This document shows positions 51,495 to 61,006 of a stretch of 64,000 nt of DNA, piece by piece (position 1 is the stretch's first letter; each line of letters starts with the position of its first letter). This stretch comes from Clostridiales bacterium (GTDB lineage: Bacteria > Actinomycetota > Coriobacteriia > Anaerosomatales > SLCP01). The position numbers were made by a program, and so were the translations under genes. The stretch is taken from contig JAGXSG010000003.1 of the NCBI GenBank assembly GCA_018333995.1, positions 1-64,000 of the forward strand, in the 5' to 3' direction. The notes beneath the pieces are model-generated. The model worked only from the letters and a program-made list of their open reading frames with translations. It searched no databases and was not told the DNA's origin.

Positions 51495-52223
51495 ATGCAG
51501 CCAGATTCGGAGCGCCCCACAGAGGCGGGGCACGTCCCCGGACCGCAGCACGAGCCGCAGCCCGCGAAGTCCGAGCGTCAGCTCGCGCTCGAGCGCGAGG
51601 ACAAACGGCGCCGCACCCTGATCGCGCTCAGCACGCTCGCGGTCCTTGCGTTCCTGCTCTTCTTGGTGTCATTCGCATTCGAGGACTCACGCATCGCCGC
51701 GGAGTCCGGCACCCGTCCGGTCGCCAACCTGCCAGCGGACACGGCCCGTGTCGAGCCACCTGAAGAGCCGCTCTTCACGCTGCTCCCCGTTTCGCTGACC
51801 GGCTACGCCACCAGGGCATACCAAGACACGCCGTACGGCGGCGGCCTTCAGGCGGAAGCCGTCTACGAGCCAGAAGACATGCACCTGCAACTCGCCTCGC
51901 CCCTCAACGTGTACGCTCTCCTCACCTTGTGGGACTCTGAAGAAAACGCCCGGCTTCATGTGGAGCGAACCGCAGCCGGTTTCCCGCTTGAAGCCGTCGT
52001 CACGGTTGTAGGAGAGAGCGCCGCGCTCGCGTACATGGGCTACGACTCAAACCGCGCCCGCTACTTTGTGGGCCACCAGAAGGGGACGCTCTCCCTCATC
52101 ACCTACGCGACGTACTCGCGCGGCGGCGTACCGGTCGACCACCGCGACCAGCTGAGGGTCCACGGTCAAGCGCTCTCAACGAAAGTCATCGATCATCTCC
52201 ACCAGGGATCCGCCGGTGAGTAG
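51495..52223 (+). CDS. single-pass membrane protein preceding the multiheme cytochromes
   Basis: The protein has 242 residues. A 45-residue polar N-terminus rich in E, P and Q is followed by one transmembrane helix (TLIALSTLAVLAFLLFLVSF) and an extracytoplasmic domain of about 175 residues, which I do not recognise. No Cys or heme site is present. It overlaps the next cytochrome gene by 8 bp, so it belongs to the same unit and may be an accessory or docking subunit. A possible -10 TATACT lies at 51422. No strong ribosome site precedes ATG 51495; a TTG at 51474 is an alternative. Confidence 0.65.
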   Translation: MQPDSERPTEAGHVPGPQHEPQPAKSERQLALEREDKRRRTLIALSTLAVLAFLLFLVSFAFEDSRIAAESGTRPVANLPADTARVEPPEEPLFTLLPVSLTGYATRAYQDTPYGGGLQAEAVYEPEDMHLQLASPLNVYALLTLWDSEENARLHVERTAAGFPLEAVVTVVGESAALAYMGYDSNRARYFVGHQKGTLSLITYATYSRGGVPVDHRDQLRVHGQALSTKVIDHLHQGSAGE

Positions 52224-53220
52224 CTTAGACGAGCGCGCACGAGAGCGTAGACGCAAGCGCCACGCGCTCGAGGACCGCGCTGTCTTCGTGGTGAAAGCGG
52301 CCGTGCTGGCCGCGGTCATCTATGGGTTCACCACCATGAGCGCGGCACCCCTGACCATCACGTGCCGAGGATGCCACTCAGACACGCGCGCGTCACATCA
52401 AGCGGCCGCTCACTCTGATCTCTCGTGCAACGCGTGTCACAGCGGGACCACGCTGGCAGACCGGCTCGATTTCCGAGTCCGGTACGCGCGCATGGTCACC
52501 TCCCAGATACTTTTCAGGCCCAGCGGGGGCACCGTGGTCACCAACGCCACCTGCGCCGGTTGTCACACGATGGAGATCGCCTCCACGTTCTCAGCCCCCA
52601 CCGGAGTCCGCATCAGCCACCAGCAAAAGATCGCTGGCGGGTATCAGTGCACCGACTGCCACTCGACAACCGGTCACGCGCTTTCAGGTGCCGCGGAACG
52701 CCGCCCGGACATGTTCGTGTGCCTCTCGTGCCACAACACGCTTGAAAACGCCCGTTGCGAGAGCTGCCATACGGAAGAACGGGAGGCCCGTCCGCACTAC
52801 GTGAGCGAGTGGCGGCTCACGCACGGCGCCAACTGGCGCTCGCTACACGGCATGGGCGAGCTCGCCACGTGCAACATCTGCCACGTCCCCTCGTACTGTG
52901 CGAGGTGTCACGGCGTCGAACTGCCGCATCCTTCCGGCTATCTCGCCCGCCACGGTAACGCCGTACTCGCGCCGGAAGCCCGGCAGGTGTGCTTCGATTG
53001 TCACGACAACGAGCAGTTCTGCTTTGCGTGCCACCAAGTCGAGATGCCCCATCCGGAAGGATTTTTGCGCGGCCACCTAGAGACGTCACCCGGCACGGAG
53101 GAGCGGTGTCTTCGGTGTCACCAAGACACCACGTGCACCGCGTGCCACACCCAGCACGTGCATCCTGGCATCCCGCCAGACATCCTCTCCACTCTGAGAG
53201 ATCGGCTGGGACTTGAATAG
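52216..53220 (+). CDS. membrane-anchored dodecaheme c-type cytochrome
   Basis: The protein has 334 residues, with one N-terminal transmembrane helix (VVKAAVLAAVIYGFTTM) and twelve CxxCH motifs: CRGCH, CNACH, CAGCH, CTDCH, CLSCH, CESCH, CNICH, CARCH, CFDCH, CFACH, CLRCH and CTACH. Repeated HPxGY/FL-type segments (ELPHPSGYLARHG, EMPHPEGFLRGH) suggest internal duplication. The number of hemes points to long-range electron transfer outside the membrane. The GTG start lies in GTGAGTAG, overlapping the upstream stop. No catalytic-domain signature is obvious; a NapC/NrfH-like quinol role is possible but the heme count is much higher. Confidence 0.87.
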   Translation: MSSLDERARERRRKRHALEDRAVFVVKAAVLAAVIYGFTTMSAAPLTITCRGCHSDTRASHQAAAHSDLSCNACHSGTTLADRLDFRVRYARMVTSQILFRPSGGTVVTNATCAGCHTMEIASTFSAPTGVRISHQQKIAGGYQCTDCHSTTGHALSGAAERRPDMFVCLSCHNTLENARCESCHTEEREARPHYVSEWRLTHGANWRSLHGMGELATCNICHVPSYCARCHGVELPHPSGYLARHGNAVLAPEARQVCFDCHDNEQFCFACHQVEMPHPEGFLRGHLETSPGTEERCLRCHQDTTCTACHTQHVHPGIPPDILSTLRDRLGLE

Positions 53221-53233
53221 GCAGCTCAGCGAC

Positions 53234-54460
53234 ATGACCTGGCGTGACGCCCTCGACATCCTGCTGCTCGATTTGCAGCAGGCGGTCGTGTCGCCCGCCG
53301 CCAATCCGACGGTGACGCTGCTCGTACTGCTTATCCTGCTCGTGTTCCTCGCGTTCCTGGCGGCGCTCGGTTTTTCCATCTACATGCTCGTCAGCCGCAA
53401 ACGCAACAAGGTCACATGGATACGCGTCGCCGCCACGCGCAGAGAGCGCTGGATCAGCCGGTTCGTGCTGCTGGTCTTCTTTGTCACGCTGATGATTCCC
53501 ATCACGTACTACACGGAGGCCGAGACCAACTGCCTCAACTGCCACTCAGAGGGCAGGGAGCGCCGGGCGCTCGATGAGACCGCGCACCAGACGGTCAGGT
53601 GCGTGAAGTGCCACATGGAGCCGGGACTGAGCGGGTACGTGAGCCAGAAGATCGATTTCTCGCGCTGGGTGCGCGAGTACCTCGAGGTCCAAGAGCCTCC
53701 TCGCAACGAGCTGATGGACGGACGCGTAGTCGACGCGTCGTGTCTGAGGTGCCACCGCGCCGTGACAGACGGCACGATCACGGTGGGCTACATCCGTGTG
53801 AACCACGCGCAGATCGCCACGGGTGACTCCCGCTGTGTCGACTGCCACAACCAGGTCGGACATCCTGGCGTGGTGACGCCCGCGCGCGAACCGCAGATGT
53901 CGATTTGCATGCACTGCCATGACGGCGTGCAGGCCAGAGCGGAGTGCGCGGTCTGCCACACGAGGGACGTGGGCGACGGCGCTCGCCCCGCCGAGAGGAC
54001 CTTCCCCGCGCAGCATGCGATCGACATCGCGTGGAATTACTGCTACGGCTGCCATGACGAGAGCAGAGAGTGCCTGCCATGCCACGGAGTGACCATGCCC
54101 CATCCCCCCGACTGGATAGCGGATCGCCAGGTGGTAAGCCACGGCAGGGCGGCGGCGTTCACCAACAAGCAGGTGTGCTGGCGTTGCCACTACTCAGCGG
54201 CGGGCCCGTTCACCCAGGGTGACGAGTTTTGCGGACGGTGCCATCGAATCCAAGTCCACGGCCGCGACGAAGACGTGTACTGGTCTCATCGCCGCTTTGA
54301 GGCCGCAAGCTGCGTCGGTTTCTGTCATACCGCGAGAAAGTGCACATCGGCATGTCACGAGTACCGGTCGGCCACAACCGCTCCTCCCGCCGTGATGCAG
54401 CGGCCGTTCATCGTCCCCGATTACCGGGACCCAGACCTGTTTCCCGTACCGCAACAGTAA
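53234..54460 (+). CDS. membrane-anchored multiheme cytochrome with two CX3CH sites
   Basis: The protein has 408 residues. Two transmembrane helices (TVTLLVLLILLVFLAFLAAL and RFVLLVFFVTLMIPITYYT) precede ten CxxCH motifs: CLNCH, CVKCH, CLRCH, CVDCH, CMHCH, CAVCH, CYGCH, CLPCH, CWRCH and CGRCH. Two further C-terminal sites have one extra residue: CVGFCH and CTSACH. If these bind heme the total is twelve. HPPDWI and PAQHAID segments echo the upstream cytochrome. ATG 53234 was preferred to TTG 53213; neither has a strong ribosome site. The 54461-54531 gap holds only a 21-codon frame. Confidence 0.85.
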   Translation: MTWRDALDILLLDLQQAVVSPAANPTVTLLVLLILLVFLAFLAALGFSIYMLVSRKRNKVTWIRVAATRRERWISRFVLLVFFVTLMIPITYYTEAETNCLNCHSEGRERRALDETAHQTVRCVKCHMEPGLSGYVSQKIDFSRWVREYLEVQEPPRNELMDGRVVDASCLRCHRAVTDGTITVGYIRVNHAQIATGDSRCVDCHNQVGHPGVVTPAREPQMSICMHCHDGVQARAECAVCHTRDVGDGARPAERTFPAQHAIDIAWNYCYGCHDESRECLPCHGVTMPHPPDWIADRQVVSHGRAAAFTNKQVCWRCHYSAAGPFTQGDEFCGRCHRIQVHGRDEDVYWSHRRFEAASCVGFCHTARKCTSACHEYRSATTAPPAVMQRPFIVPDYRDPDLFPVPQQ

Positions 54461-55335: not shown

Positions 55336-57837
55336 CTACTGCGCGGCGAGGCGAAGTTCTGTGGCCACAACTTCAGGAACCGGCCCCGTCCCACCGAGCA
55401 CGTTGAGTTGGTTGATCGTGGAAAAACGCGACCCGAGAAACCCGGTGACCACCGAGGGAACTGGGATGGTGTCTGGCACGAGGACGAGCGGGTGCCTGGC
55501 CGCCGCGATGACGGCACCGGCAGCAAGAGCGTCAGGATAGTTGCGCCCTGTCGCGATGTATACCGCACTCGTTGTGAAACCAGCGCTCGCAAGCGCGTGC
55601 TCCACTACAGCAATACCAGTCGCATATCTGTTGATTCCGGCAATCCTGACGGGCGACGTCAGAAGAGCCTCGACCTCCTCCGTGATGACCCCGGTTCCGC
55701 CAAGCACGATCGTCTCTGTCACTCCGAGCGTCGAAAGAGCCCCGCTAGTCTGTGCGGGAAGCGTATCGCGGCGGGTCAAGAGAACGGGCACGCCCCTCGC
55801 CGCCGCTACCCCGCCCGCTGCGAGCGCATCGGGGAAGTTCTCTCCGGTGGCAACATAGGCGGTCGCAAACCCGCTCACTCCCCGTACGCGGGCAAGCTCG
55901 AGCGCGATCCGGGCGGCGGTGTCGTAGCGGTTTTCACCGGCGATCCTCGTGACAGTGATGCCCGCGTTGGAAAGCTGGCCTGCCACCCCGGCAGACACTA
56001 CTCCCGTGCCGCCCACGATCACCGCACGTGTGGCACCCAGCCGGGTGATCTCAGCCATAAGGTGGGCGGGAAGTGAGGTCGTGGCTGGCACGAGGAGAAT
56101 CGGTGCCCCCAGCGCGCGTGCGAGCGGCGCGGCGGCAAGCGCGTCAGGGAAGTTCTGTGAAGTCGCAAGCACGACGGTTGGCGCTGTGGTAAACCCGCTC
56201 TTCGATATCTCGATGGCGGTCCTGACCCTGTCTGTGCCTGCGATGCGCACGACACGCACTCCAGTGGTAAAGCTCATGGTGTGTGCGGCGGCAAACACGT
56301 TGCCTGACATGTCGTTCACCGCGCCTTGCGGGAGATTGAGCGTGTAGCTGGTGCGAGGGTCTAGCTGTGCGCGGGGCAAAACGACTACCCTGCCTTCGCT
56401 ATGGAGGTCGACGCGGCAATCGATCCGATCGCCCTGCGCCGTTGACAAAGTGATAACGTTAAAGTTCGCCCCCTGCACGATCATCTCGTTAAAGGAAAGT
56501 ATTACCGGCGTGTCGGGACGAACAGCGTTCGCGCCGTTCGCCGGTGTGGAGGAAACCACGAGTGGGGCGAGAGTGTCGGGCGTGTGGTAATCGAAAAGAG
56601 TGCCAAAGTGGCGCAGACCGAACGTGTCGGTAATCGAGCCAACGGGTACCGAGAGGGTATATATCTCATCTGTTAGAAGCGGACGGACCGGATCCACCGT
56701 CAGGGTGTCACCGGCGAGCGACACCGTGATCGAAACAGGCACGCCAGAGCGGTTTCTCAAGACCACGTCCGTGAAACGCGGCCCGCTGTGAATGTGTGAG
56801 CTGAACGTGAGTGAGAAAACCGTGTCGAGCGGCACGTTGCGAGTCAGGGTCGGCGGATCTGCGGACACGAGCCCAAACGCCTGCGCCGAGCTGTTATCAC
56901 CCCACCCCACACGCGTTGCGTCGCTCCTCAACGCCAGTGAGTGCATCGCACCAGCGGCTACCGCGTTAACCGGACCGAGCGCAGCAGGCACGATCGCTGC
57001 CGGGTCGGTCTGCGTGACACCCGTGTGAGGGTTCCGCCAGCGACCTCCCCAGGCGAAAACCGTGCCAGACTCAGTGAGCGCGAGCGAGTAGCGGGCCCCG
57101 CCATCGATGGCGACCACTCCGCTCAGAGTTGATGGCACGCTTGTCTGCCCGTTTTCCGACAAACCCCACGCTATGACCGTTCCATTTGATCTCAGAGCGA
57201 GCGAGTGGCTGTGTCCGCACGCGACCGAGACTATGCCGACCAGATTGCTTGGGACGCTTGACTGTCCATGTCTGTTGTCGCCCCACGCGACAACGGTGCC
57301 GTTTGACCTGAGGGCCAGAGAGTGTTTGTCTCCAGCCGCTACCGCCACAACACCGCTAAGACCCGCTGGAACACTCGACTGACGTGAATCGTTTGCACCC
57401 CACGCGACTACCGTGCCGTTTGATCTCAACGCGAGTGAGTGCTCACCGCCAGCCGCCACGGCGATCACGCCGCTAAGGCCCGGAGGGACCGTTGCCTGCG
57501 CCGAATCGTTCGCGCCCCACACTACGACGGTGCCCGCGGACGTGAGCGCGAGCGAGTGCGAACCGCCAGCCGCCACGGCGATCACACCACTCAATCCGGA
57601 TGGAACCACCGCCTGCCCTGAATCGTTCGAGCCCCACGCGACAACCGTGCCCGCAGACGTGACAGCAAGTGAGTGCGCGTACCCCGCCGATATCTTCGCG
57701 GCTGCCTGCGTTGCCTGAGGCACGGTGAGAGCATGAGCGGTCGCGGGAAGGTACGTGAGCGGAATAAACCAGCTTGCGACAAGCGCTGCAAGCACGCCCA
57801 CGCGAACGAGCACCGTGCTAAACGTTATTCGCGACAC
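55336..57837 (-). CDS. surface protein with RCC1 repeats, Big_5 domains and CWB2 repeats
   Basis: The protein has 833 residues. A Sec signal (VRVGVLAALVASWFIPLTYL) is followed by about seven RCC1-type repeats (residues 45-330), with units such as VAAGGSHSLALTSAGTVVVW and WGANDSRQSSVPAGLSGVVA. Next are two Big_5 Ig-like domains (about 330-535), and three CWB2 repeats (about 545-833) with RIAGTDRVRTAIEISKSGF, NFPDALAAAPLARALGAPIL and GGTGVVSAGVAGQL. CWB2 repeats anchor proteins to secondary wall polymers. I chose GTG 57837, 4 bp after AGGAG; a GTG at 57849 is possible. RCC1 repeats in a bacterial surface protein suggest a beta-propeller for binding; the ligand is unknown. Confidence 0.88.
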   Translation of the reverse strand: MSRITFSTVLVRVGVLAALVASWFIPLTYLPATAHALTVPQATQAAAKISAGYAHSLAVTSAGTVVAWGSNDSGQAVVPSGLSGVIAVAAGGSHSLALTSAGTVVVWGANDSAQATVPPGLSGVIAVAAGGEHSLALRSNGTVVAWGANDSRQSSVPAGLSGVVAVAAGDKHSLALRSNGTVVAWGDNRHGQSSVPSNLVGIVSVACGHSHSLALRSNGTVIAWGLSENGQTSVPSTLSGVVAIDGGARYSLALTESGTVFAWGGRWRNPHTGVTQTDPAAIVPAALGPVNAVAAGAMHSLALRSDATRVGWGDNSSAQAFGLVSADPPTLTRNVPLDTVFSLTFSSHIHSGPRFTDVVLRNRSGVPVSITVSLAGDTLTVDPVRPLLTDEIYTLSVPVGSITDTFGLRHFGTLFDYHTPDTLAPLVVSSTPANGANAVRPDTPVILSFNEMIVQGANFNVITLSTAQGDRIDCRVDLHSEGRVVVLPRAQLDPRTSYTLNLPQGAVNDMSGNVFAAAHTMSFTTGVRVVRIAGTDRVRTAIEISKSGFTTAPTVVLATSQNFPDALAAAPLARALGAPILLVPATTSLPAHLMAEITRLGATRAVIVGGTGVVSAGVAGQLSNAGITVTRIAGENRYDTAARIALELARVRGVSGFATAYVATGENFPDALAAGGVAAARGVPVLLTRRDTLPAQTSGALSTLGVTETIVLGGTGVITEEVEALLTSPVRIAGINRYATGIAVVEHALASAGFTTSAVYIATGRNYPDALAAGAVIAAARHPLVLVPDTIPVPSVVTGFLGSRFSTINQLNVLGGTGPVPEVVATELRLAAQ

Positions 57838-57849
57838 GGCGCTCCTCAC

Positions 57850-58462: not shown

Positions 58463-59428
58463 CTACCGGTGACACACCGTACAATCTTCCTTGGGCATAA
58501 CGTTAGCACCGACGTCGAGAGCGTCATGGCAGGCACCACACGCGACTCTGCGCGTGCTGAACGCCCTGGTGGGGGTAGCTGTTCCGTGTTTGAGGTTGTT
58601 GATCTGCTGGAGGGTACGGACCACGTTATCCGCCACTAGGCGTCCGCAAAGCTCTGAGCGAAGCAGGTCAGGAGTGAGACCGGTGCCAAGCTGCGCGAGG
58701 TACCCGTTTGCCGGGTTGCGATACTGCTCGACGATGTTGTGGCACTGCAGGCTCCGCGGCGTGAAGCCGGTCACCGATTGCCTCCGCACGCTTCCTCCAA
58801 CTGCAACCTTCGCTGTGTGGTTCAAGAACCAACCAGCGTTACCGACATCCACAAACGGGTGCGGGTCTTCGCAGAAGTGCGCGAATATCTCGTCTATCCT
58901 CGCATTCGTCAAACCGCGCGTGGTGGCTATCTCGGTCACGACGGCGCAACTAATAGCTATACCGCATGTCGCACCCCAGCCAGCCATACCGGCCGCGCCG
59001 AACGCTGTCGGGGTCAAGGTCACGGCCATGCCAGGAGTGGCGCGGCTGTACGCGCCGTGCATGTACTCCCAGGGACTACGCACGCCACTACCGGTTAGAT
59101 AGGTGGTCTCAAGCACTACTGCATCGATTATCACTGAAACCAGTGCATGGTAGGCTGCGTTCGCTCAACCACCGCCCGCGACGAACTGGTTGAAGCCACG
59201 CACGGCGGCCAACTGGCATGCAGCTTCAAACGTCGCAGGAGTACTCCACGCGACCGGCCAGTGCAGGTTCTGCGCGGTGAAGGGGCCGATGGCCGCATCC
59301 GCGTACGCCTTGTCAGTGCCTACCGCAAGCTGGCCTACGCCGTAACCGGCTGCCAGGATTCCCGCGCCTATCAGCATCTCCCTACGAGAGATTCCGTTGG
59401 CTTCAGGAGTCATGATATCTCTATCCAC
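58463..59428 (-). CDS. split-Soret-like diheme cytochrome c with in-frame UGA (candidate selenoprotein)
   Basis: One frame from GTG 59428 to 58463 (321 residues) is interrupted by a single TGA at 59165-59167. GGAGGG lies 7 bp before the GTG. An N-terminal Tat signal (SRREMLIGAGILAAGYGVGQ) fits a split-Soret cytochrome. Before the TGA the frame reads FNQFVAGGG; after it ANAAYHALVSVIIDAV and then AAGMAGWGATCGIAIS, the C_GCAxxG-type core, ending with the CGACH and CTVCH heme sites. From memory the family has GGC(x)YG-like sequence at the TGA, so a Cys is replaced by UGA: either selenocysteine or a TGC/TGT-to-TGA nonsense change. A hairpin with a GGU loop lies 23 nt beyond the UGA. The stop in the middle does not otherwise shift the frame. 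Confidence 0.72.
59132..59145 (-). other. candidate bacterial SECIS hairpin
   Basis: In the mRNA, CACU and AGUG enclose the loop GGUUUC (G and C in the loop may close a fifth pair). GGU begins 23 nt after the UGA at 59165-59167, within the usual 16-37 nt of bacterial SECIS elements, whose apical loop needs GGU or a similar GU. The stem is only 4-5 bp and does not extend without bulges, so it is weak but well placed. Confidence 0.45.
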
Positions 59429-59460: not shown

Positions 59461-60954
59461 TTAGTGGTTGACGCCAACACCGGTGTGGCACCTGAGACAC
59501 ACCGCATCGAGGTTGCCAGCGCTGAGAGTACCGACTTGGGACGGTGTCGCCCAACCTGTTGCGTCCATCGAAGAGGTCCAGCGACCGAGCATCTTGAAGT
59601 CGTTCGCGGGACCGGCGTGCGGGAAGTCGTACAGAGCCCAGTTGCCAGCGTTCTCAGCCGCGGTACGCATCGTCGCGTAACCGACGGTTCCCAAGTGGCA
59701 CTGGTTGCAGGTGGCATCGGGGCCGCCGACTGAGTTTGCCGGAGTGAGCGGCATGTCAGCACGGTGGCAGCTGTAGCACTGAGCCGGGCCACCGCTCGAC
59801 GTACCCGTGTAGGGAACGGGGTGTGTACGGTCGCCGTGCATCTCGCCACCGAACTGCGAGGGCACTGCGGAACTCGAGCCGATGTTGAGGTTGTGGCAAT
59901 CAGCGCACCACACCGAAAGCGCCCGGCTCGTCACCTGTGCGGGATCAAGCTGGGGATCGACAGCTACGAACACACCGTTGTGATACCGGCCGGCTTGGCG
60001 CCAGTCGGTCCAGACAGTGTCGGGAAGACCGGTGTTGGCCGCCGTGAGGTCGGTCGTTGGAACGTCGATAATCTCCGCTGTGGTGACCGTGCCGCCAGCA
60101 CGGCCTACCATCATGGCCTGGTCATTTACCGAACCTGACGGCGAACTGCGGAGCAGCTTGTAGCCAGCCGGAGCGTCGGCCGTCCTCCACACAAGTTCTT
60201 GCGCGTTATGGACCTGATGGCAGCTCATGCAGGTAAGCGCGTTGGGACCGACCCTCGCCCAGTCACCGAAGCCACCATGACCAAAGTTGCCGTGATCCCG
60301 CGTGAAGCGGAACATGGCGTTGCGACGCTCTTCGTAGCGGCGCACCTGGATGGTCGTCGATGTGGTGTTCATCGAGGCGTCGACCGTTGAGATGGTGGTG
60401 TCAGTAAGCCACTGGCGCACCGAGCTATCAGGGATGATCGAGCTCGCGCCGATCGTGTGACCGTTGGTCGTGTAGATTCCCTGGGCACCGCTGCTGTCGT
60501 ATACGATCTTGCGGGAGCGAGCCGAGTTGCCGATATGACAGTAGTTGCACGCGTCGTCCTGGCTGTTGGCCCTCAACAGGTAGTAGGCGCCCTCCGCGCG
60601 GTGGACGGCATGACAGACTTTACACTTGTTCGAAGTCGAGTCGTAGCCGCCGTGCGGGTTGGTGCCGTAGATGTCAAAGCCCGCGCCCGAAGGATGGGTA
60701 GCGGTTGCCGTAGCGTCGAAGGCCCGGTACCCGCCCTCAGTCTTGCGCGCGGGATCCCTGAGATCCTGATACCACCAACGGCTCGCGCCATCGGCGCCGA
60801 TGACCGTAGTGGCCTCCTGGCCCTCGGTATCAGGCGATGCGAACGCTACCGCCACGCCTGACACGAGCATCAGGCATCCAAGAGCGAGAGTCAGAAACAA
60901 TCTAACACGCATGGAACCTCCCTCCGTAGATGAGACAGATGTAAGTTTGTGCAT
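59461..60954 (-). CDS. secreted heptaheme c-type cytochrome
   Basis: The protein has 497 residues. Seven CxxCH motifs: CKVCH, CNYCH, CMSCH, CADCH, CYSCH, CNQCH and CLRCH. The signal peptide is MRVRLFLTLALGCLMLVSGV. ATG 60954 has a full consensus AAGGAGGT site 6 bp upstream, while a second in-frame ATG at 60912 follows GGAGGGAGG and matches the usual signal start; either may be used. The hemes are spread over a long polypeptide with large intervening domains, like the OmcI-type extracellular cytochromes. It is 32 bp upstream of the split-Soret-like gene and may pass electrons to or from it. Confidence 0.82.
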   Translation of the reverse strand: MHKLTSVSSTEGGSMRVRLFLTLALGCLMLVSGVAVAFASPDTEGQEATTVIGADGASRWWYQDLRDPARKTEGGYRAFDATATATHPSGAGFDIYGTNPHGGYDSTSNKCKVCHAVHRAEGAYYLLRANSQDDACNYCHIGNSARSRKIVYDSSGAQGIYTTNGHTIGASSIIPDSSVRQWLTDTTISTVDASMNTTSTTIQVRRYEERRNAMFRFTRDHGNFGHGGFGDWARVGPNALTCMSCHQVHNAQELVWRTADAPAGYKLLRSSPSGSVNDQAMMVGRAGGTVTTAEIIDVPTTDLTAANTGLPDTVWTDWRQAGRYHNGVFVAVDPQLDPAQVTSRALSVWCADCHNLNIGSSSAVPSQFGGEMHGDRTHPVPYTGTSSGGPAQCYSCHRADMPLTPANSVGGPDATCNQCHLGTVGYATMRTAAENAGNWALYDFPHAGPANDFKMLGRWTSSMDATGWATPSQVGTLSAGNLDAVCLRCHTGVGVNH

Positions 60955-60977
60955 GAATTCACCTCCTTCCACAGGCA

Positions 60978-61006
60978 AGCGTACCGTGGTCAGATGTGTC
61001 GTACAA
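60978..61006 (-). promoter_or_regulatory. possible promoter of the heptaheme cytochrome
   Basis: On the minus strand TTGTAC (61001-61006) and TACGCT (60978-60983) are 17 bp apart, about 24 bp before the ATG at 60954. The -10 fits the loose TANNNT pattern of high-GC bacteria. A TTGTGAATTAACGCACGAA stretch just upstream is partly CRP/FNR-like (TGTGA-N6-GCACG), but too weak to call. Confidence 0.35.

Follow-up and report, generated by a model that had tools for sequence, protein, structure and literature searches.

The window (the whole 64,000-nucleotide stretch of DNA that was analysed) carries on its minus strand a gene, 59428..58463, that is best explained as encoding a Tat-exported, split-Soret-type diheme cytochrome c with selenocysteine (Sec) at the first Cys position of the C_GCAxxG_C_C motif, a reading to which we give a probability of roughly 0.93. 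Decoding of its in-frame UGA as Sec is very likely, given a conserved TGA on a Cys column, the presence of the selenocysteine machinery, and a compensatory base pair together with codon conservation downstream of the UGA; actual insertion is inferred, with no protein or expression data.

The gene begins with a GTG start at 59428 and ends with a TAG stop at 58465-58463, encoding 321 residues with the UGA read through. A strong Shine-Dalgarno sequence, AAAGGAGG (59444-59437, minus strand), lies 8 nt ahead of the GTG start, and the spacing from GGAGG to the start is equal in the window gene and in its relative from genome G003 (G-numbers denote genomes of the same order, G000 being that of the window). 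The preliminary description of this DNA had placed an interrupted frame at 58463-59428, and these coordinates hold, though its claim lacked the strand, which is minus. The plus-strand reading of the same interval was rejected: it is not open and contains several stops. As also described, the lone interruption is the TGA at 59165-59167, a single TGA among 321 codons and located at codon 88, and the two halves share one frame without an indel. This frame has the best codon-usage score of the six, with a modest absolute score.

The Tat signal, C_GCAxxG-like core and two CxxCH sites previously proposed are all found, on the minus strand throughout. A Tat-type twin-arginine motif, SRREM (residues 14-18, 59375..59389), is evident from the sequence and is followed by a hydrophobic segment; the PF10518 and TIGR01409 models match other members. 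The UGA (59167-59165) occupies the first Cys column of the C_GCAxxG_C_C motif. The GCAxxG-like segment GMAGWGATCGIAIS (58949..58990), whose core reads GMAGWGATCG, contains the invariant Cys155, while the invariant Cys229-His230 pair (58739..58744) supplies the third Cys of the motif and the invariant Cys261 (58646..58648) the fourth, as assigned from the relatives' alignment and a profile alignment with the solved structure 1h21. His230 is a candidate axial heme ligand, a role that is inferred. The two heme c sites, CGACH (residues 297-301, 58526..58540) and CTVCH (residues 316-320, 58469..58483), are supported by sequence and by the 1h21 profile alignment. CxxCH at the first heme site is common to the window gene and 1h21; several relatives (L011, L021, L022 and others) have CxxxxCH there.

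Assignment to the split-Soret family, suggested in the preliminary description, was borne out. A profile built from 11 relatives found one convincing solved structure, the split-Soret cytochrome c 1h21 (E=4.5e-28), matched over the whole domain with all four C_GCAxxG_C_C Cys positions and both heme sites in register. In this alignment the UGA column pairs with the Cys of GFGCGFGAF in 1h21, and the CH pair of the window protein is likewise aligned. A Foldseek search of predicted structures also returned 1h21 first (probability 1.00, TM 0.49/0.55, E=3.3e-3), the other matches being noise; this fold test rests on a medium-confidence model (pLDDT 67.5), obtained when a larger alignment raised the pLDDT of 52 of the first AlphaFold model. 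Four conserved Cys with a GCAxxG-like core are seen across the relatives' alignment, and the PF09719 (C_GCAxxG_C_C) model matches 5 of the 11 members at E<=0.01. The window protein itself misses the Pfam gathering score for PF09719 (16.3 vs 27 bits), and the single window sequence misses the equivalog cutoff of NF047622, the Desulfovibrio type (39.8 vs 400 bits). A convincing profile match to 1h21 combined with an NF047622 score far under cutoff indicates a distant split-Soret relative within the same superfamily and not a Desulfovibrio equivalog; membership of the split-Soret fold is a conclusion we hold with high confidence.

The interruption might be a TGC/TGT-to-TGA nonsense mutation that has left a pseudogene, or a sequencing error in one genome, since one base separates TGA from the Cys codons and the assembly is a draft of 34 contigs. 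What contradicts this is the recurrence of TGA at one identical column in nine genomes of the order, window genome included. In the G003 relative, from the same family but another genus (44-46% identity), the corresponding codon is also TGA (RGFNQFNIGGG-U-GNASYFGLVSVL), and the flanks common to the two proteins read RGFNQFxxGGGUxNAxYxxLVSV. Seven more TGA-interrupted homologues within the order (G045, G049, G053, G055, G056, G061 and G063) were found by an NF047622 search followed by an alignment search. The carriers form two deep groups with about 22% identity between them: the window gene with its G003 relative, and the seven others (hereafter group 2). Because TGA recurs in eight other genomes, a one-off mutation or error cannot account for it. 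The downstream half, moreover, keeps every Cys and heme residue, which speaks against a pseudogene, and the coding frame is maintained on both sides of the UGA, with codons conserved past it. Mutation or error is on this evidence highly improbable.

Homologues without the TGA have Cys at the UGA column in every case: 1h21 has it, and so do all 12 of the other homologues that were examined, of which four belong to the order, one comes from a named Actinomycetota MAG and seven come from other parts of the phylum. The three remaining motif Cys and the heme residues downstream of the UGA are conserved throughout the homologues. The conserved GGC that the preliminary description expected at this position was close; the actual motif at the first C_GCAxxG_C_C Cys is (A/G/S)G-[U/C]. 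In a tree of the family, the window gene and its G003 relative sit on a long branch, and the seven group-2 Sec genes fall next to the G037 Cys gene. This sequence-based tree gives no support for a single, unchanging Sec clade; one gain with losses and repeated gains would both fit. Five group-2 proteins (L020, L021, L023, L035, L058) have adjacent Sec and Cys (GUCEG); others have UG or US at this point, and the Cys relative in G037 has CC. The two split-Soret genes of G049, L016 and L035, make up a natural Sec/Cys pair within one genome.

No internal stop was found among 44 matches to canonical PF09719 proteins of the order, and no relatives were found in plasmid and viral collections. A contig scan used a DNA pattern unable to match TGA and so recovered Cys homologues only. 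No further TGA-joined coding frames were detected in the window at the threshold used, a scan that is uninformative because the present gene itself would fail that threshold.

The machinery needed to insert Sec is encoded in the window's genome, where selB, selA and selD lie in one cluster (C2:5415-9790; L089) and a tRNA-Sec is found at C19:548-640 (74 bits). The SelD gene has its own in-frame TGA (KAGUAAKWG) in the known U-x-x-K motif, so a standard Sec gene is already present in this organism. PF05889 is absent from the genome, which is uninformative since this model describes the archaeal/eukaryotic SepSecS. Across the order, selA is present in 54 of 69 genomes, and most TGA carriers have both tRNA-Sec and selA. 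Neither was found in the draft assemblies of G053 and G055, which both carry the TGA gene, and the draft assembly of G003 gave no match for tRNA-Sec, though selA is present. As sel genes tend to cluster and these assemblies are drafts, a missing contig is the likelier explanation for the absent genes, but true or recent loss of the machinery in G053 and G055 is not excluded. Selenocysteine had been put forward together with outcomes that would refute it, and the findings on each (sel genes in the genome, Cys at the TGA column of homologues, a TGA shared column for column with eight other genomes) all favour the proposal.

Genome-wide reassignment of TGA to Trp, Gly or Cys would likewise keep the frame open, but this alternative is scarcely credible in light of how TGA is used in the same DNA. 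TGA ends 19 of the 46 long ORFs in the window and terminates conserved genes, among them what we take from their sequences to be the housekeeping genes hisS, hisC and hisF; TGA is an ordinary stop elsewhere in this genome. Reassignment is further opposed by the relatives, in which the UGA column is Cys and not Trp or Gly, and by the complete Sec machinery.

The cis-acting evidence for Sec decoding is uneven between genomes. A CACU/AGUG hairpin had been described as starting 23 nt after the UGA; the hairpin exists (CACUG-GUUU-CAGUG, or CACTG-GTTT-CAGTG in DNA letters; 59145-59132, minus strand) and is proposed as the SECIS apical hairpin from folding and comparison with G003, but its stem begins 19 nt past the UGA, and it is the apical loop that lies at 24 nt (23 nt if the loop is taken as GGUUUC). 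The bacterial SECIS model calls for a G in the first two loop positions, a loop 16-37 nt after the UGA and an MFE of at most -7.5 kcal/mol (PMC13188914). With G first in its GUUU loop and the loop at 24 nt, the window hairpin falls within this model for loop and spacing, in keeping with the earlier view that its position is normal for bacteria. As evidence of a SECIS, however, the hairpin had been overstated where the window gene is taken by itself: the structure is short, has a free energy of -4.4 kcal/mol and does not differ clearly from synonymous recodings (P=0.33), and the 53-nt stretch reaches its MFE (-10.4) in a different fold.

The case becomes convincing only with the G003 sequence, in which the corresponding hairpin, GGACUG-GUUU-CAGUCC, reaches -8.0 kcal/mol (P=0.004 vs synonymous recoding). 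The two hairpins have identical loops and inner stems and differ by one compensatory pair, C-G to G-C. Over the 13 codons after the UGA, residues identical between the two proteins keep the same codon in 7 of 8 cases, compared with 52 of 122 (43%) elsewhere (p=0.016), and the kept codons include the rare GTT and TCA (9% and 7%, respectively, of their residues' codons). The group-2 element differs, with a lower stem GCGAG/CUCGC, an upper stem CUGGCC/GGCCAG and a loop CGUGAUU. Its stem is paired in 91% of cells, compared with 53% in Cys homologues, but the protein sequence largely fixes the upper stem (P about 0.4-0.5 vs synonymous recoding), and we treat it as supporting and not independent evidence. 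No compensatory change was found in the group-2 hairpin pairs, which hardly vary.

UGA readthrough is known in bacteria, and the UGA could instead act as a regulated or programmed stop, yielding a short peptide with occasional readthrough or near-cognate insertion of Cys. Such a reading would be compatible with the weak hairpin of the window gene and with the two carriers lacking detectable selA and tRNA-Sec. Yet the truncated product of 87 residues would be without any heme, the three remaining Cys and the heme residues are conserved beyond the UGA, and most carriers do possess the Sec genes. We regard termination as very unlikely and return to Sec insertion, by which the SelA/SelB/SelD/tRNA-Sec system would decode the UGA at 59167-59165, with SelB bringing the Sec-tRNA and the short SECIS hairpin just 3' of the UGA presumably aiding decoding.

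The genes surrounding the Sec gene also point toward exported electron transfer. Adjacent upstream is an exported heptaheme cytochrome with seven CxxCH sites (59461..60978, minus strand), a gene that also precedes the G003 relative. Downstream lies an RCC1-repeat/CWB2 cell-wall-binding surface protein (55336..57849, minus strand; 837 aa, with RCC1 repeats, Big_5 domains and CWB2 wall-binding repeats), conserved beside the Sec gene in G003, and two NapC/cytochrome c7-type multiheme membrane cytochromes (52216..54460, plus strand) are near the gene in both genomes. The order is the same in each: TPR and NHL-propeller proteins, a Germane-domain protein, the heptaheme cytochrome and the Sec gene, then a small exported-looking protein, the RCC1/CWB2 protein, and a convergent TPR protein with two large multiheme cytochromes. 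The Sec gene of most group-2 genomes comes after a giant cytochrome with 12-16 CxxCH sites, and next come ResB and CcsA-type genes for cytochrome assembly. The large multiheme cytochromes L078-L082, immediately beside group-2 Sec genes, have 14-16 such sites; the giant cytochrome of G045 carries CWB2 cell-wall-binding repeats. Pfam assignments for these neighbours were made on G045, the others being read by N-terminus similarity. The group-2 loci look like Gram-positive surface electron-transfer loci. That all carriers except G055 adjoin a large multiheme cytochrome suggests a role in exported electron transfer.

Taken together, the apoprotein would be exported by Tat, with hemes attached outside (export being inferred), and the product most probably acts within a multiheme electron-transfer chain, either on the cell surface or in the exported space. 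Its two C-terminal hemes may exchange electrons with the neighbouring multiheme cytochromes, an inferred route. The Sec/3-Cys site may hold a labile iron or iron-sulfur centre, the iron being inferred, or may act as a redox-active selenol. We take the centre of the Desulfovibrio desulfuricans split-Soret cytochrome to be of [2Fe-2S] type, oxygen-labile and bound by Cys of the C_GCAxxG_C_C set. The title of the 1h21 entry reports a non-heme iron centre for that protein. Such a centre would most obviously sit at the Sec/Cys/Cys/Cys set, and a role at an iron site is a tentative inference; the more specific proposal, that the Sec88 selenolate and three Cys ligate a non-heme iron or [2Fe-2S]-type centre beside the stacked hemes, is also inferred and, at present, doubtful. 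As to why Sec is used over Cys, faster selenol chemistry is a reasonable guess, and so is resistance of an exposed centre to oxidation.

C-GCAxxG-C-C proteins were catalogued as selenoproteins in 2022 (PMC9312934), a 2026 catalogue of 119 families lists them as forms 1 and 2 (PMC13188914), and the NCBI name of TIGR01909 is 'C-GCAxxG-C-C family (seleno)protein'. A split-Soret cytochrome is absent from both the 2022 and 2026 catalogues (PMC9312934; PMC13188914), consistent with the earlier remark that such a protein was unfamiliar, and our literature search, whose coverage was incomplete, found no published work joining 'split-Soret cytochrome' with 'selenoprotein'. C-GCAxxG-C-C selenoproteins are thus already known and the split-Soret branch is uncatalogued; priority is not certain, as the Sec position in forms 1 and 2 is unchecked.

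With the window gene, a structurally characterised cytochrome family whose Cys version is solved (1h21) would join the selenoproteins, making possible a direct comparison of Sec and Cys at a likely iron-binding site beside hemes and linking the use of selenium, in Coriobacteriia that are mostly uncultured, to loci for multiheme electron transfer. If Sec88 ligation proves true, the cytochrome would hold a natural Sec-ligated iron site, acquired or retained by two separate groups of Coriobacteriia with multiheme electron transfer. Gene callers that take UGA solely as a stop would truncate or split the gene in all carrier genomes.

Finally, the window protein can be set beside three known systems. 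Canonical PF09719/TIGR01909 members are, to our knowledge, short and without hemes, and we know of no C_GCAxxG_C_C site in ExtKL (NF040886) or in the tetrathionate-reductase-type octaheme cytochrome (TIGR04315). What the C-GCAxxG-C-C family (PF09719/TIGR01909) shares with the window protein is the four-Cys motif, in a family catalogued as containing selenoproteins (PMC9312934; PMC13188914). ExtKL and the TIGR04315 octaheme type are precedents as c-type cytochromes with Sec (PMC13188914), although they belong to other families and carry many hemes. The likeness to 1h21 of D. desulfuricans ATCC 27774 (NCBIfam NF047622) extends over the whole-length profile match, the four-Cys set, the two C-terminal CxxCH sites and the best Foldseek match; the two proteins differ in that 1h21, at an identity of only about 18-20%, has Cys where the window protein has UGA.
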